Positions 10,969 through 22,960 of a stretch of 22,960 nucleotides of DNA are shown here, one piece after another; within the stretch, counting starts at the first letter, position 1, and each line of letters opens with the position of its first letter. A program made the position numbers and the translations under genes. A model generated the notes under the pieces. The model worked only from the letters and a program-made list of their open reading frames with translations, ran no database searches and was not told the origin of the DNA. Source of the DNA: a virus. The DNA lies in the IMG/VR virus record IMGVR_UViG_3300003324_000143, positions 1 through 22,960 of that record; one strand, 5' to 3'.

Positions 10969-12716
10969 CGATCCAGCGGTTCTTCAACGACTACCCGACA
11001 GACATCGGTGCTGACACCGATGGGGTGGACAACGCCTCTCCTGGCACAATTTCTTACGTCAATGAGGCCGGTGTACCGGAAGAAATCGCGCAACAGGCCC
11101 TTCGGAAAACAGATATTGCGTCAGCCATCGACCAATGGTCACGCAATCTGAGTGGTCAGTCGGCACAGGGATCGCTGTTCTTCCGCAACCGGTACAACCT
11201 CACCACCAACATCTACGACCAGATGATGCAGTGCTCCGACGCTGTGGAGTGGGACGAGATCCTCTCGGCTACCTGCGACGCCACTGAGGGCCTGGCTTTC
11301 CAGAAGATGTCCTTCGAGTGCGTCGATCCCGACCAGGAAGACGTGTGGAACCAGGTGGCGGCTGACCTGGATATGGACAGCCGTCTACGTGAGATCTGGC
11401 GTGAGTTGTTCAAGGTCAGCCAGGTCTACATCGCCATCGACTGGATCGAGAAGGTCTACAAGGTCCGGACCAAGGCGTTCCCGGACATGCACGCGGATGA
11501 CACCGAGAACGTCACCGTGCCGCACCCTGGCGCTGAAGACCTGCACCCGACTGGTATCCCGAACCCGGGACCGAAGAAGCGTGCTCGCCGCAAGCAGTTC
11601 GCGCTGACTGTGCCTGGACGGCTGTCCATTCTCGACCCGACCAAGGTGCTGCCGGTGGGGCAGTTGATGTTCGGCCAGGAACGCTTCGCCTACATTGCTG
11701 AGCAGCAAGAGCATGAGGCGTTCATCGAGGTCTTCCAGGGCCGCAGTCAGGACCCGTTGGTGCTGAAGATGTTCGACGGACCGTACACGCCGACACCAAC
11801 GGAACTCGCTCAGTTGTCCGAGGCTCACCGTGGTCCGACGAACAAGGTCTTCCTCTGGATGTTCAAGAAGGAAGCCGTCTTCCGTCACACTCTGTCACGC
11901 GCTCAGTACGAACGGTTCGCAGCCATCCGACTGAAGTCCTTGCTTCCAGTCCTGGACATGAAGAGCCATCTGCGGGCGTCTGACCGTGCAGCACTCATCG
12001 GCTCGACCAACTTCATCGTTGTGCTCAAGCGTGGTTCGGACAAGTACCCAGCGCGTCCGGCTGAGATCGAGCAACTCCGTGAGCAGGCTCGTGTGGTCGC
12101 ACGGATGCCAATCCTTGTGGGCGACCACCGCCTTGAGGTCGAGATCATCACGCCGAAGACCGACTTCGTACTGGATGAGACGCGGTACGACACGCTCGAC
12201 CAGCGCATCATCATGCGTGCGCTCCAGACGTTCACATTGACCAGTCGTGGTAACCAGGGCCAGGCAGAGACGTTCCATAACGATGTCATCGCTCGTGGCA
12301 TCGAGGCGCGTCGCCATGAGGTGTCTCGCACCATCGAAGAGCACCTCCTCAAGGCCACGGTGGACCGCAACCCCACCGCACTGACGGACACGCCGAGCCT
12401 GTCGTTCCACCCGAAGCGCGTCGTGATCACTACGAACACCGACGTGATCAACGGTGTCATCAAGTTGCGCGCCTCAGGCGACATCTCCCGGGAAACCATG
12501 CTGGAAGAGTTCAACTACGACCAGGAGATCGAGTACATCCGCCGCAAGCGGGAGAAGGCAGTCGACCCGACGTTCAAGTCTTCGGTGCCGTTCTCCTCGC
12601 CCGACTCCAACCCGTTCACCACCGGTGGCCAGGGTGGCCGTCCGGCTGGTGGCGGTGGGGCCGATGCGCTCAACCGGGACCCGTCAGGTGCAACTCCACC
12701 GTCGCCGAAGGGCTAA
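10965..12716 (+). CDS. Portal protein
   Basis: This is a 583-aa protein starting at GTG 10965 with a four-base overlap with the previous gene. Size, position directly after TerL and before the protease/scaffold/capsid genes, and content all fit a portal, the dodecameric DNA channel at one capsid vertex. Visible features are an N-terminal helical part (IAQQALRKTDIASAIDQWSR), a mixed alpha/beta core (VYIAIDWIEKVYKVRTKAFP), and a long helical crown-like region with RREQ/RRKRE segments. It ends in a Gly/Pro-rich disordered tail (TTGGQGGRPAGGGGADALNR). I did not identify family-specific residues, so the call rests mostly on synteny and length. Confidence 0.82.
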   Translation: MTIQRFFNDYPTDIGADTDGVDNASPGTISYVNEAGVPEEIAQQALRKTDIASAIDQWSRNLSGQSAQGSLFFRNRYNLTTNIYDQMMQCSDAVEWDEILSATCDATEGLAFQKMSFECVDPDQEDVWNQVAADLDMDSRLREIWRELFKVSQVYIAIDWIEKVYKVRTKAFPDMHADDTENVTVPHPGAEDLHPTGIPNPGPKKRARRKQFALTVPGRLSILDPTKVLPVGQLMFGQERFAYIAEQQEHEAFIEVFQGRSQDPLVLKMFDGPYTPTPTELAQLSEAHRGPTNKVFLWMFKKEAVFRHTLSRAQYERFAAIRLKSLLPVLDMKSHLRASDRAALIGSTNFIVVLKRGSDKYPARPAEIEQLREQARVVARMPILVGDHRLEVEIITPKTDFVLDETRYDTLDQRIIMRALQTFTLTSRGNQGQAETFHNDVIARGIEARRHEVSRTIEEHLLKATVDRNPTALTDTPSLSFHPKRVVITTNTDVINGVIKLRASGDISRETMLEEFNYDQEIEYIRRKREKAVDPTFKSSVPFSSPDSNPFTTGGQGGRPAGGGGADALNRDPSGATPPSPKG

Positions 12717-16498: not shown

Positions 16499-16515
16499 GA
16501 GGGGGTGGATCACTA

Positions 16516-17454
16516 ATGTCGGACATCACCAAGAAGTTGGTTGACGCTTTCGGGCGTTCCGCTGAGGACAAGCGAGTCAAGCGGGAACTGACCGAGCGCG
16601 CCAACGATGAGGCACGCCAGTACTGGGGCGACCCTAAGTGGCGTGCAGACTTCGCTGCCGAGATGACGGAATCCATCCTTCTCGGCTTCGAGTACGAGAC
16701 GCTTGTTGACCGTTGGATCGAGACTGAGACAACGGACTTCAACGGACGCATCTTCGTCCGTGAGGCAGGCGGCCTCAAGGCGTTCTACATGGCACGTGGT
16801 GGATACATCGAGGCGAGCCAACTCGTCAGCGAGGTCTCCGAGATTCCGCGTGACATGGTTGGTGTGCACGTCTGGGAGTTCGAAGACAAGTTCACCAACA
16901 ACTTCGCGGAGAGCGCGCAGACTCTGCGTGACCTCAGCACCCAGCGCATGGACGCGGAGATCAACCGCCGCATCCACACGGTCCTGTCTCAGGCCATCCC
17001 GGTTGGTAGCCCGTACTACGTGGCAACTCCGGGTCTGAGCAAGGCTGCTCTGGACAACGCCATCCGCAATGTCCAGGACTCCACTCGTACCGGCGAGGTT
17101 GTGATCGTTGGTCGTCCTTCGATGGTCGACCAGATCGTTGACTTCGAGGGTTACGGCATGGAGACCCTGGAAGAGATCCGCCAGAAGGGTGTCCTCGGCA
17201 CCTACCGTGGTTGCACAATCGTGCGCCTGAAGAATTTCAAGGACGAAGACGGTACTCCTTACCTTCCGGGTAACGAGATGTGGGTTATGGCCCGCGACAC
17301 CGGCAAGTTCGCATTCTTCGGCGGGCTCAAGAGTAAAGAATTCGAGGATTTGGACAACTGGTACTGGCACTACATCGCGCGTCGTGACACGGGTCTTCTC
17401 GTGCACCACCCGGAGCGTGCCCGTCTGCTGGTGGACAGCAACCAGCCTGCCTAG
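16516..17454 (+). CDS. Major capsid protein (HK97 fold)
   Basis: This is a 312-aa protein. I choose ATG 16516 (MSDITKKLVDAFGRSAEDKR), with a G-rich GGGGGTGG site about 8-12 bases upstream. An in-frame ATG at 16435 lies inside the preceding gene. Features fit an HK97-type shell protein: a charged helical N-arm with a long spine-like helix (RINRRIHTVLSQA region), a beta-rich domain (GEVVIVGRPSMVDQIVDFEG, TYRGCTIVRLKNF), and a P-domain/A-domain ending DTGLLVHHPERARLLVDSNQ. It is the last gene of the head operon, directly followed by a strong terminator, which is expected for the most abundant product. Confidence 0.85.
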   Translation: MSDITKKLVDAFGRSAEDKRVKRELTERANDEARQYWGDPKWRADFAAEMTESILLGFEYETLVDRWIETETTDFNGRIFVREAGGLKAFYMARGGYIEASQLVSEVSEIPRDMVGVHVWEFEDKFTNNFAESAQTLRDLSTQRMDAEINRRIHTVLSQAIPVGSPYYVATPGLSKAALDNAIRNVQDSTRTGEVVIVGRPSMVDQIVDFEGYGMETLEEIRQKGVLGTYRGCTIVRLKNFKDEDGTPYLPGNEMWVMARDTGKFAFFGGLKSKEFEDLDNWYWHYIARRDTGLLVHHPERARLLVDSNQPA

Positions 17455-17503: not shown

Positions 17504-17531
17504 GCGTGACGTGTTCCGGAACAGCGTGACG
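17504..17531 (+). promoter_or_regulatory. 12-bp palindrome flanked by direct repeats at the array's left edge
   Basis: TGTTCCGGAACA (17512-17523) is a perfect palindrome. It is bracketed by two copies of GCGTGACG (17504-17511 and 17524-17531). It lies between the terminator and the first GTCGT header (17548). It may be an operator, a nuclease or recombinase site, or part of the array. No function is shown. Confidence 0.45.
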
Positions 17532-19473
17532 CGACTCGACAGGGCGTGTCGTGCAGGCTAGGCCAGGATTGGATCGGCAGGCTGTCGGTTCGGAAAGACT
17601 CCACTTGTCGTGACGGCATGGCGTGGCCGGGGTTAACAAGCAAAAGACTTGGCAAGTCGTTTTGGCTGGAACTGAAACAGACGGGTGTCAGAACTAGGCA
17701 AGTCGTAATGGCGAGGACAGCAACAAGGCCGGGTCAGGCTAGTCGTCCAGGTCCGGCAAGTTGGGTGTGGGCAAGAGTGGGTGTGTCGTCGTGGCATGAA
17801 CTGATGTGGCAAGACAAGAAATAGGCGAGTCATAAAGGCATGGCAGGTTCCCGGCGAGGTGGAGGCGCGGCGCGTCGTTCCGATCAGGGATGAGCGGTCT
17901 TGACTTGGCACGTCGAGTAGAGAAGTCGTGGCCAGACACGGGTCGTCGTCCTGGGCGGGTATGGAGTGTCGGTGCGGGATGGCCGGTACGCGACTTGAGC
18001 AGATGTGGTTAGTCGGCGTTTAGGCATGACGAGACATGGGCTGCAATGTCGGTCCGGGTAGATGTCGGGTCGGCACGAACTGAGTCGGGAACGGACTAGT
18101 CGTCGTGGCCAGGCGCGGTGTTGACATGCAGCGGACCTGGCTAGTCGTCATGGTTAGACGTGAATTTGGTTGGGCTAGTCGTCAGATGGCTGGGGGCGTC
18201 TTGTCTGGACTAGGCGCGGCAAGTCGGTTCGATTCGGAAAGGACCGGGTTGTCGTTCGGCTCGGAAGGGTCTGTCACGGTGAGGCAAGTCGGCAGAGGAT
18301 GGACGGGAGTTGTCGAGGATCGTCGTATGGGCCGGTAAAGGCAGGTCCGGACCCGGCTCGACTAGTCGCCGTGATGAGGCAAGTGGTGGGTTGGGACGGA
18401 TCGTCGGTGCGACGAGGGCGAGTGTGGGGCTGTGGCTGCTCAGGCTAGTCGGGCGGGCGCGAGTAGTTCTTGTGTCGGGATGACTCGAACAGAAAAGTCG
18501 TGCTGGCTCGTTATGGCGTGACGTGGACCGATCAAGACTTGTCGGGCGCTGTCGTCCAGGGTTGGCTTGGTCTCGTTTATGTAGCCGACTTGTCGTGGGT
18601 GGGCACGTCGGTGAGGCGGGACGGGATGTTGACTGGATGGCGGCAAGACAAGGCCCGTCGAGTAGACATGACGAGAGTTGGCGAGATAAGTCGTGCTGAC
18701 GAGGCTAGTTGTGTCATGGGTGGACGAGATAAGAAAAGTCGCCATGGGGTGACGAGACTTGGGCATGCCGAGGCAAGTCGAACCGGTTCGGGTGGACTCG
18801 AACAGACAAAGGTCCGGACAGACCTGGCATGTCGGTCAGTTGTGTCCAGGGAAGGCATGGCAAGTCGGTCCGGGCGGGCTGGTAAAGATCCAGTGATGAC
18901 TTGACTTGTCGCCAGTTGAGAAACGTCGGGGCAAGAAAAGTCGCTCCGGCCTGAGTAGGGCTGGCAGGTCGAGTAGGCGTGCGCGGTCTCGACACGGAGT
19001 GACGCGGCTTGACCCGGCTAGTCGCTGTGCGATGAGAAGGCTCGAAAAGACTGGTCGTTCTGGACAGGGACGATTTGGACGCGTATTTGTTCTCGTTGCG
19101 GCGCGGCACGACTTGTCGTGGTGGCGGGACAAGACCCGGCGTGTAAACGGCATGGCTAGTCGGCTTGACCTTGGTTAGACCTGGCCAGGCGTAGGCAGGC
19201 ACGTCGTTGTGACCTGGGCTGATGTGAGCACGCAGTAGACAAGGCAAGTCGGTGGGACATGGATGGCAGTGACACGACTCGTTCTGGCTCGTCGGTTGGG
19301 CACGTAGAGCAGGGTGCAAGACAAGGCATGTCGCGTGGATAGGGCATGACTGGTCGAGGCTGGAATAGTCGCACGGTTGTAGGCCGGTAATGGCGCGAAA
19401 AGGCTCGTCGCAATGTCGGGGTTGGACAAGACCTGGATAGTCGCATGGAAATGGCGAGCACAGACAAGAACAT

Positions 19474-19511
19474 GGCGTGTCATGTAGGCAAGGCGTGTCA
19501 TGTAGGCAAGG
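19474..19511 (+). repeat. Tandem 18-bp duplication inside the array
   Basis: The 20-mer beginning GGCGTGTCATGTAGG occurs at 19474-19493 and again at 19492-19511, giving an exact 18-bp tandem copy (8 + 2 blocks of 5). It keeps the header grammar, so it looks like a recent whole-unit duplication. Confidence 0.8.
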
Positions 19512-19826
19512 AGTCGAGACGACCGGGCCGGTTCCGACGAGGCGCGACTTGTCCAGGGCATGTCACGCTGGCTTGTCCTGTGATGGCAAGAAAAGTCGTT
19601 GCGGCTAGACGAGTTTCGATCAGACCAGGCGAGTTGCTGACGCGGCGAGAGTTGTCGTGTGGACATGGGGTGGCTCGTCACGGCACGAATAGACAAGGAA
19701 AAGTCGTACAGGGAAGTGCCGGAGCGGACCCGGGTTGTCGTCACGGCCAGGACAGAAGTAGCAGGGGTTGGGTGTGTCGGAACCGAAGCGGGGCGACTTA
19801 GACACGCGCTTGTCCAGGCTCGGCTG

Positions 19827-19860
19827 GTCATGAGGGTTAGAGAGTCATGAGGGTTAGAGA
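19827..19860 (+). repeat. Tandem 17-bp duplication inside the array
   Basis: GTCATGAGGGTTAGAGA occurs at 19827-19843 and again, exactly, at 19844-19860. It is a second recent unit duplication with a GTCAT header. Confidence 0.85.
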
Positions 19861-20142
19861 CAGGTATGGATGGTCGTCTGGATAGTGGTTGGGTCAGTCG
19901 TGGCACGTCGGACTGTCGGGGCGGGGCATAGGTCCGTTGCGTCCAGGCACGTCGAACTGGCTCGAACTGATCCGTGCGCGGCAAGAAGCGACGATGGGTT
20001 GAACTGTCATGTCGGTGCGGTCAGGGGAAGAATCGAAAAGACTGGACGCGACAAGGAGTAGTCACAGTGGCAAGACAGGCACGGAGTCGGAAAGTCGTTG
20101 GGGCAGGGCTTGTGCGCGTCCGGAGTTGAGAAGGCCAGTCGT

Positions 20143-20169
20143 CAGGAGTTGGGTCGCCAGGAGTTGGGT
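20143..20169 (+). repeat. 15-bp spaced repeat inside the array
   Basis: CAGGAGTTGGGT occurs at 20143-20154 and 20158-20169, a 15-base period (three blocks of five). It is consistent with growth of the array by slippage in whole blocks. Confidence 0.7.
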
Positions 20170-20290
20170 TGGGTCGTCGTTGTGAGTGGGCTGGTTCTCG
20201 ACGGGGGTGGGCGAGTCAGCGGGGTCGGCCAGTCGTCCTGGAGTGATGAGGTATGGCGAGGATCGCAAGGAAACGGTAAGTCGTTTGCCT

Positions 20291-20307
20291 AGCCGTATCT
20301 ATACGGC
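20291..20307 (+). promoter_or_regulatory. Array-end element AGCCGTATC with perfect 7-bp hairpin
   Basis: AGCCGTATC (20291-20299) is shared with 5607 and 22270. Here GCCGTAT (20292-20298) and ATACGGC (20301-20307) form a perfect stem with a CT centre. It overlaps the stop codon of the leftward gene at 20299-20661, so it could also act at that gene's 3' end. Confidence 0.65.
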
Positions 20308-20661
20308 GTCGGGTTCTTCTTCGATTACGTTTTCGGTTGGTACGTTGCCACCCCAGTGGTTGATGATGCCGAGTGGTCGTTCTTTTTCCGCTGGGCACGT
20401 CATTTTTGTTGGGTCGTTGCCTCCTGTGAAATTGATGCCCCATGCTTCGCGTAGTTCTTGCCAGTCGGGATGGGCGTCACAATATTGGCAATGTCCTGGG
20501 GCGTGAAGAACTCGTTGGTCACAGTGGGGAAACTGTGAAATTGTCGGTTGCGGAACTCCGAAACCCATCGCGTTGATGTCAGCCTGCGCTTTTTGGCCAC
20601 GTTTCACGAAGTCCTTGATCGTGTTGAGTTGCCATGACTGTGCACGTCCGTGTTCCTCCAT
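20299..20661 (-). CDS. Leftward Cys-containing hypothetical protein embedded between two arrays
   Basis: This 120-aa protein is read on the minus strand. It begins MEEHGRAQSWQLNTIKDFVK with a helical, basic N-terminus. The middle has FPHCDQRVLHAPGHCQYCDA, giving three Cys and several His that could bind zinc. It then runs DWQELREAWGINFTGGNDPT, MTCPAE, and a C-terminal tail ENVIEEEPDAV that echoes the VIEEE tails of the products at 436-948 and 973-1161. The composition is ordinary protein, unlike the surrounding array, so it is a real gene. The array starts within ten bases of its ATG, and no Shine-Dalgarno is visible, so its promoter must lie within patterned DNA. The function is unknown. Confidence 0.82.
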   Translation of the reverse strand: MEEHGRAQSWQLNTIKDFVKRGQKAQADINAMGFGVPQPTISQFPHCDQRVLHAPGHCQYCDAHPDWQELREAWGINFTGGNDPTKMTCPAEKERPLGIINHWGGNVPTENVIEEEPDAV

Positions 20662-22269
20662 GGGGTCAGGTTAGTCGGACTGGCAGGACGAGGCTAGGAC
20701 CGGTGGGGAAGGACATGAGGAGTCGCGGAGGCATGCGGCTGACTAGGCCGGGAAGTGGTAGGGCTGGTCGGGCGGTCTAGAGCCGGTTGGACATGCGACA
20801 GGCAAGTCGAAAAGAAGAGGCGCGTGCCGACAAGAATTGGCAAGTCGTCAGGAAGAGGGTGGAAACGGTCGAGGTGTGAATGGACATGTCGGATCGAGCA
20901 AGGCATGACCAGGAGTGCTCGCGGCGAGACGCTGGCAAGTCGTTCCAGGAAAGGTGCGGGTCGACATGCAGTGGTGTGGGACGTCGGTCGGAGTAGAAGA
21001 GTGAAGACTCGAATCGGCACGAGTAGTCGGCTTGGTGAAGGACAGGTCTGGTGTGAAATTGGACAGTCGGTTTGACTTGCCGAGCAATGAAAAGTCGTGA
21101 TGGCCGGTCCGGTTCGTGACAAGAAGAGGCGTGTCGGACTGACGTGGCGTGTACGGACACGATGGGACCTGTTTCGACACGCTCAAGAACAGTGCATGAT
21201 AAGGCCAGTCGTTGAGGCTTGAGCCGGATGGACCTGAATTGTTCTGGTGTGGCGTGGGTCGGGATGTCGTTCAGGCGAGGTGCGTGTGGGCGTGGGTGGG
21301 TCGGACAGGTGCTCGGGTGGCTAAGTCGTTCCGGCCAGGCGAGATCGTGACAAGGACTTGACCCGACAAGCGACCGGGCGCGGCTGGGGGCGTCGTATTG
21401 GCGAGAGCGGACAGGGCCAGTACGGGCACGACATGACGTGGCGCGACTCGGGGCCATGACCAGGCGTGTCGTTCGGGGCTGACCAGACAGGGATTGTTCC
21501 GACAAGCGTCTGAAACGGAGTGTCGCATCGGTTGGTGCTGGTGAGGATTGCAGCGGAACGTCGGATCGGATTCGGACGGGGTTGACACGAGGATGCGACG
21601 CGAGCCAGGCGAGAACTGTCGGGTTCAGTCGTTGAGGAACGGGCGGGCCGGGTTGGTGCGAGTAACGGACTGTCGTACAGGCGAGTCCTGACCTGGATGC
21701 GTACGCGTCGGGGCTTGTCCCGGCTGGGCCAGTCGCATGGGGTTGAACCGGCGCGTGATGACTTGATGGGGTGGGCCAGAAATAGTCAGAGCGGTGAGGA
21801 AAGTACGGCTAAGACGTGTCGCGTAGGCGAGTCATGACCGGTGCAAGGTAAAGCCGGACGGGGCGTGTCGAACCGGGTGGACTCGGCGGGGGCAGTACCG
21901 CGATGGGCCAGGAAAGTCGGACGGACCCGATCCGCGCCGGACAAGAGTTGACTAGTCGGTGGGGAGGGATTTGCACCGTGTGAGGGCGGGGCCGACATGT
22001 CGAACGGTCGAGTGATGGCGTAGCAAGTGAGGGCACGTCGTGTTGACGTGAGACGCCGAGAAATGACGTGTTCAAGGCGGGACAAGGTGAAGTCGCAGTG
22101 ACTTGACGTGTAGAACAAGGCGCGACCCGCACGGGCTTGGCATGTCGTACCGACTGGATTAGACACGCGCTCGACGTGAGTAGATAAGTCGTGATGGACG
22201 GTTCTGGACCAGCAAGAAACGGACGGTACGTCGCGTAGGTCGAGAGCAGTCGATGAGTTGACTTGTCGT
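20662..22269 (+). repeat. Non-coding G-phased pentamer array, segment 2
   Basis: About 1.6 kb with the same + strand grammar as segment 1, with roughly 40 GTCG headers by hand count. The clearest stretch is 21392-21449: header GTCGT, three bases (ATT), then ten consecutive 5-nt blocks that all start with G (GGCGA, GAGCG, GACAG, GGCCA and six more). The orientation is the same as segment 1 although the gene between them is leftward. It ends in GACTT-GTCGT and the shared AGCCGTATC element at 22270. No gene is supported on either strand. Confidence 0.85.
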
Positions 22270-22289
22270 AGCCGTATCTCATTCACGGC
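22270..22289 (+). promoter_or_regulatory. Array-end element AGCCGTATC with 5-bp hairpin
   Basis: GTCGTAGCCGTATC at 22265-22278 is identical over 14 bases to 5602-5615. GCCGT (22271-22275) pairs with ACGGC (22285-22289). It is the third instance of the array-end element, with a different stem length at each site. Confidence 0.65.
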
Positions 22290-22308
22290 GTTCGGTGAAA
22301 GACTGCCT

Positions 22309-22356: not shown

Positions 22357-22960
22357 TTAGTTCTTGGTCTTGGCTGCTTTCACGGGCTCGACCTTCTCGA
22401 ATGCAACGAGGTCGAACTGGCCGTCAGAGCGGCCACGGTCAGCACCGAGACCGATGTCCTCGCCACGTTCGAGGATGCGTGCCCATGCTGCGAGTGGAAG
22501 GAAATCGTCGTGAACTTTCAGCGTGAAGGTGAGCGTCGGTTCCTTGATGACCTCGACACGGTTCAACGCCGATTTTGGCCCTTGTGGCGTCATCACGTGC
22601 TTGATTCGTTCTTCTACCCAAGCCTGGCCAACACCTGGAGTTGACGAAACCTCGTCCGACTTGACGCCGGTGCCGATGAAGACTTCCTGGACGAACGCAC
22701 GCTCGGCCAGGGTTGCCATCAGGCCCTTGCGGAAACCCTTGGCGACGTCGGTCTTACCGGGCCACTCGGTGCCCGGGTAGGCGCTGTTGGCCCATTCCTT
22801 CAGGCCAGCCTTGATGCAGCGACCTTCGACCATGAGTTCACCGGTCTGCGGGTCACGCTTGAAGCCGTTGACGGAAACCGTCTCCTGCTTCTCCATGAGT
22901 GCGTCGAGTGCCTCGTCGGTGGTCTTGAACTCCGACTGGCCGCGCTCAGCGAGCGTCTGC
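22357..22960 (-). CDS. Hypothetical protein, partial at the window edge
   Basis: This reads on the minus strand. The frame stays open from the ATG at 22896 back to the window end, and that upstream part (QTLAERGQSEFKTTDEALDA) looks like protein. I therefore call the gene partial, with at least 200 aa, its start lying outside. After the ATG position it reads GFKRDPQTGELMVEGRCIKA, then ANSAYPGTEWPGKTDVAKGF, then a beta-type segment (TLTFTLKVHDDFLPLAAWAR), ending in a Lys/Ala tail. There are no zinc or membrane features. I do not recognise the family. Transcription converges on the array and a hairpin terminator follows the stop. Confidence 0.8.
   Translation of the reverse strand, partial: QTLAERGQSEFKTTDEALDALMEKQETVSVNGFKRDPQTGELMVEGRCIKAGLKEWANSAYPGTEWPGKTDVAKGFRKGLMATLAERAFVQEVFIGTGVKSDEVSSTPGVGQAWVEERIKHVMTPQGPKSALNRVEVIKEPTLTFTLKVHDDFLPLAAWARILERGEDIGLGADRGRSDGQFDLVAFEKVEPVKAAKTKN

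Follow-up and report, generated by a model that had tools for sequence, protein, structure and literature searches.

Two non-coding arrays in the window, the 22,960-nucleotide stretch analysed here and part of a 24,199-base record of an uncultivated virus, very probably form a bank of about 100 guide RNAs of the VIPR type (vrRNAs), and the neighbouring gene for a protein of predicted Cas7 fold very probably encodes the Vipr that binds them. According to the VIPR preprint (PMC13142463), such systems pair ancestral RAMP proteins encoded by phages with guide RNAs built from GGY/NN pentamers. Each vrRNA is described there as a tract of repeats that ends in a structured 3′ tail, DNA is recognized through the NN letters with one target base skipped, and a minimal locus comprises vipr and one vap gene, of which vap1–6 are known; related consensus sequences, staggered arrays with overlapping vrRNAs and seven types are also mentioned. 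The window carries a divergent, punctuated and very large VIPR array, and the original prediction that no phage element of this kind had been described does not hold, since VIPR arrays are the subject of this April–June 2026 preprint. The evidence bearing directly on this reading comprises the array grammar, the link to one gene, the predicted fold of its product, the tail hairpins and the guides that can be decoded in relatives. The features of the locus are as follows.

16510..17454, plus strand: capsid-like (major head) gene, from PHROG matches, upstream of array 1
17521..20286, plus strand: array 1, about 65 GTC-headed units with 438 GRCNN pentamers on the G-rich, putative vrRNA strand, from lag-5 autocorrelation and HMM
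20287..20312, plus strand: hairpin tail closing array 1 on its 3′ side, GCCTAGCCGTATCTATACGGCGTCGG, from tail conservation and stem pairing
20299..20661, minus strand: 120-residue Cys/His-rich ORF between the arrays
20660..22268, plus strand: array 2, about 35 units with 260 pentamers in the same grammar as array 1, from lag-5 autocorrelation and HMM
22266..22295, plus strand: hairpin tail closing array 2 on its 3′ side, TCGTAGCCGTATCTCATTCACGGCGTTCGG, from tail conservation and stem pairing
22357..22959, minus strand: Vipr-like gene, C-terminal 200 residues, with predicted Cas7/Csm3 fold

Array 1 begins just past the terminator of the capsid-like gene. The Vipr-like gene extends to about position 23143 of the virus record, with two N just past the window, and directly upstream of it, in the window as in its relatives, lies a conserved small coiled-coil-like gene that is a candidate vap partner. 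The 120-residue ORF between the arrays has no family match, and its homologues occur in phages without arrays. No similarity of the array DNA to phages was found, and an Rfam search of the array returned nothing credible.

Both arrays are written in a period of five. On the plus strand of array 1, the autocorrelation of G at lag 5 reaches z = 12.7 over Markov resamples that keep the dinucleotide content, with harmonics at lag 10 (z = 7.8) and lag 15 (z = 5.0) over the same resamples; C at lag 5 gives z = 10.2, and the lag-5 signal of array 2 also reaches z = 10.2. The same autocorrelation shows no lag-5 signal in two neighbouring coding genes, those for the capsid and the terminase. Aligned on GTCG, the array shows G recurring with a 5-nt step between −25 and +23. 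An HMM of headers and pentamers, trained on the whole set of arrays and with a first-order Markov model as baseline, yields an LLR of 441 nats for array 1 (shuffles −518 ± 21) and 187 for array 2 (shuffles −303 ± 23), and parses 97.6% of the bases in both arrays as GRCNN pentamers in GTC-separated units, with a modal unit length of 5–6 clean blocks. Position 1 of the pentamer is G in 98–99% of cases, position 2 is mostly G or A and position 3 mostly C, while positions 4 and 5 are near uniform in composition.

These results bear out the original prediction of a non-coding, period-five array in which phase and not sequence is conserved: the NN letters are hypervariable and the GRC phase is kept. 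The exact parse claimed for 18657–18738, with header distances of 33 and 48, was reproduced. Several details require revision. GRCNN blocks do account for nearly all bases, but their middle letters are loose, GGC and GAC together making up 42% of the blocks in array 1. The proposed header spacing of 8+5n is the largest class but is not universal (mod-5 residues 3:36, 4:32, 0:31, 1:13, 2:9), much of the remainder departing from it because of slips of 1–2 nt within units. A header is present, as claimed, but its last two letters behave like guide letters, and what had been parsed as GTCG-N plus three free bases is therefore better taken as a triplet, GTC, with an ordinary block, G-NN-NN, behind it. 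The extent given as 17540–20290 matches a signal that fills 17521–20286, but array 2 was missed; overall, the facts about the array stood, whereas neither the tail hairpins nor the Cas7-like gene next to the arrays had been noticed. The NN pair directly before GTC is A/T in 71% of cases versus 49% elsewhere, which suggests that WW-GTC delimits each unit or serves as its minimal handle. Short tandem duplications in array 1 at 19474–19515 and 19829–19865 (GTCATGTAGGCAAGG... and GTCATGAGGGTTAGAG...) are a possible trace of unit gain; apart from short tandem duplication, the arrays contain no identical repeats.

A hairpin of the form GGCTAGCCGY...RCGGCGTCGC closes the window arrays, and most actinobacterial ones, on the side nearest the gene, once per array and not once per unit. 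Among 11 distinct tails, five stem pairs are formed in all (100% paired), and the fifth covaries from U-A to C-G, on both sides, in 5 of the 11. The tail of one relative (L080) is a diverged form. The position of the hairpin, 3′ of the repeats on the G-rich plus strand, makes this strand the likely RNA.

The Vipr-like protein has zero sequence matches in Pfam, NCBIfam and the PDB, and its assignment comes from predicted structures. For a homologue (L073; pLDDT 74), the best 50 Foldseek matches in the PDB are all Cas7-type (best E-value 2.8e-7, probability 1.00), and structural comparison gives Z-scores of up to 11.4. The model of the C-terminal 200 residues from the window, a protein left incomplete by the N gap, has a best Z of 8.0, marginal alone, and its matches are all of Csm3/Cas7 type. 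Viral structures matched in BFVD include proteins of archaeal viruses and a phage protein whose annotation is Cas-associated RAMP. The models thus place the protein in the Cas7/RAMP fold. It also carries a glycine-rich loop, GxGADRGRSDG, and such loops are typical of RAMPs. Profile comparison with SUSP1-type Vipr is not significant (HHalign prob 0.3, E-value 0.22) and aligns only the region of this loop.

The gene and the array travel together. The Vipr-like gene led to 15 contigs, and in all 15 a lag-5 array lies directly downstream of it; these are nine viral contigs and six genomes (Nonomuraea, Sphaerisporangium, Actinomadura, Thermoactinospora, Spongiactinospora), some of them being one and the same element represented twice (L076/L085, L077/L088). 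The relatives' arrays begin at the 3′ end of the gene and are G-rich on the strand opposite to it. The gene of Microcystis phage Mae-JY09 is 36% identical and has at its 3′ end an array with GTCG headers, likewise G-rich on the opposite strand. This array lies in the unannotated genome end (20705–21225 of L089), and the hairpin tail was not seen in it. The expectation of homologous arrays in other actinophages was borne out.

Guides were decoded in relatives of the window. A 16-letter pattern from one unit of a related prophage array (L078), read with one base skipped per block, matched 26 viral stretches, 12 of them in one protein family, whose matched sequence, N(R/K)(L/I)EQRFGRIHRIG(Q/R), is motif VI of SNF2-type helicases. 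In eight viral helicase genes the unit agrees at 20 of 20 letters, including four outside the query, and the base skipped in each of these eight full-length matches falls on the third, wobble position of the codon. Three of the eight viral genes and one genomic match that were fully classified are HmaA (bit scores 1290–2139), and a second genomic match is DISARM DrmD (NCBIfam 1213.9, cut-off 610); both are anti-phage defence helicases. In 61 genomes searched with 2 mismatches, skip 1 gave 19 matches, 16 of them in the QRxGR motif of HmaA/DrmD-type helicases (a count that includes the L189 match, counted from its sequence), as against one match for skip 0, none for skip 2 and 12 scattered matches for skip 3. 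The raw counts for skips 1 and 3 are close, and it is the concentration on one catalytic motif that sets skip 1 apart.

A neighbouring unit of the L078 array and a unit from another genus (L087) also read as QRxGR motifs, giving three such units in two genera against 0.15 expected, a number reached in 0 of 200 shuffles; the motif was picked after the first match, however, and the count is therefore not a clean prediction, and common ancestry of the three units is possible. Comparison of L078 with L087 shows agreement in 18 of 20 guide letters and in 8 of 16 scaffold letters, which fits selection acting on the guide letters. The second guide of the L078 array, at 588 in array coordinates, reads [IM][DE]QR[NK]GRVG and comes near an IEQRNGRID-type motif recurring in Streptosporangiales genomes (16 of 18 letters).

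For the window itself, four units were searched, three of them as exact patterns in viral contigs; for one unit, 198 Actinomycetes genomes were also scanned, allowing up to 3 mismatches. None of the four gave a match beyond chance. A local target search over 1.1 Mb with skips 0–4 showed no excess over shuffled guides, and the longest unit of the L085 array, of 11 blocks, gave one chance match in 347 genomes. Treating NN as codon positions 1–2 beat the other two frames and equalled a uniform model, so the frame test is uninformative.

Set beside VIPR as known from SUSP1 and P. fulva type II in the preprint, the window has in common a RAMP-fold phage protein flanked by non-coding pentamer arrays with hypervariable NN, a structured 3′ tail, found here at the level of the array, and a candidate small partner gene, and its relatives share guides readable with a 1-nt skip on codon wobble. 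The conserved triplet, GRC in the window and GGY in VIPR, can be taken as one of the related consensus sequences. The window further differs in its GTC punctuation with one tail per array, in its shorter units (mode 5–6 blocks versus 9–16) and in their number, about 100 against four vrRNAs in SUSP1. The arrays run antiparallel to vipr, whereas SUSP1 vrRNAs lie on the vipr strand, and the window protein has no detectable sequence similarity to SUSP1-type Vipr. Relative to the preprint, the punctuation, the size and the defence-gene guides may be new, although the locus may equally be one of its seven types, for example the 'staggered arrays'.

Type III and VII CRISPR Cas7 proteins (Csm3, Cas7), which align along the guide RNA, are the best structural matches of the family, but the period of 5 nt with three fixed letters contrasts with the free spacers of those systems. 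The identical repeats and several cas genes of class 1 CRISPR-Cas are lacking: no cas-like gene besides that for the Cas7-fold protein was found among the window proteins scanned. RNA anti-CRISPRs (Racrs; PMC10651486) are likewise phage-encoded guide-like RNAs, but they mimic CRISPR repeats, which the window arrays do not, and the latter have a RAMP protein of their own.

Points against the VIPR reading are the want of a credible target among the window units searched, the insignificant HHalign comparison with canonical SUSP1-type Vipr, the modest Z of the window protein alone and, against VIPR as the preprint describes it, the GRC scaffold, shorter units and absence of a tail per unit. The first of these would suit an RNA scaffold or sponge, in which the Cas7-like protein coats the arrays, for instance sequestering host Cas7 or an RNA-binding factor, and NN holds no target information; that NN composition fits the uniform model as well as the codon-1-2 model points the same way. 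We nevertheless consider it improbable, because helicase motif VI can be read from units in L078 and L087, with the skip on wobble, and guide letters are better kept than scaffold letters.

Two further readings are far less probable still. A degenerate pentanucleotide microsatellite or compositional artefact would agree with the strong GC skew and with two duplications, a recent tandem one in array 1 and one of a unit in L073, but it is scarcely credible given that NN is hypervariable while phase is kept, that grammar, GTC punctuation and tail recur in many genomes and that the tie to one gene is invariable. The minus strand of the arrays, about 40% C at regular spacing, could act as a long Rho-loading (rut) zone buffering transcription termination downstream of minus-strand genes; such a role is just as implausible an explanation, as it accounts for neither the GTC headers, the plus-strand tail hairpins, the Cas7-fold partner nor the decodable units.

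Under the VIPR reading, and by analogy with experiments in the preprint, the plus strand would be transcribed toward the vipr gene. Each Vipr protomer would grip one pentamer through its GRC triplet, stepping five nucleotides and leaving the two variable letters free, and GTC, usually after A/T-rich letters, would mark the unit boundary and shift the register by three. The NN pairs would base-pair with double-stranded DNA, one target base per block being skipped at the codon wobble, and the complex would block transcription of the matched gene; with the skip on wobble, synonymous changes would not help the host to escape. Competing elements would be the likely targets, joined in at least two related prophages by SNF2-type anti-phage defence helicases. 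Guides against defence helicases suggest counter-defence, but helicases of this type may also be carried by rival elements, and some of the matches lie in contigs classed as viral. It is thus a possibility, short of a probable one, that the locus belongs to a distinct VIPR lineage of actinobacterial phages with up to about 100 punctuated guides per locus, some of which Streptosporangiales prophages use as RNA-guided counter-defence against motif VI of HmaA/DISARM-type helicases.

The VIPR principle was here recovered independently from raw sequence and is extended to a divergent format, punctuated by GTC, that occurs in uncultured actinophages, in prophages of Streptosporangiales and in a cyanophage. 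The results suggest that phages direct non-contiguous guides against anti-phage helicases of the host as well as against rival phages; if so, the guides of any phage carrying an array like this could be decoded from sequence alone.

The capsid gene proved a poor route to homologous arrays, most of 50 capsid relatives being without one. Only a 147-kb relative (L028; capsid 68% identical) has an array, of canonical type. Behind its capsid gene (10980–11460 and 11750–12430) lies a canonical SUSP1-type vipr, 40% identical to ALH47069, and GGCNN arrays in both orientations flank a tRNA-like element, so that the window and this relative hold two different VIPR lineages in one genomic slot. In the annotated actinophage MakoManhole of Gordonia (L215, 1640–3240, genes 77–78), gp78 is a SUSP1-like vipr homologue and gp77 a 'DNA binding protein', and the arrays consist of GGC-type pentamers interleaved with repeated tRNA-like elements.
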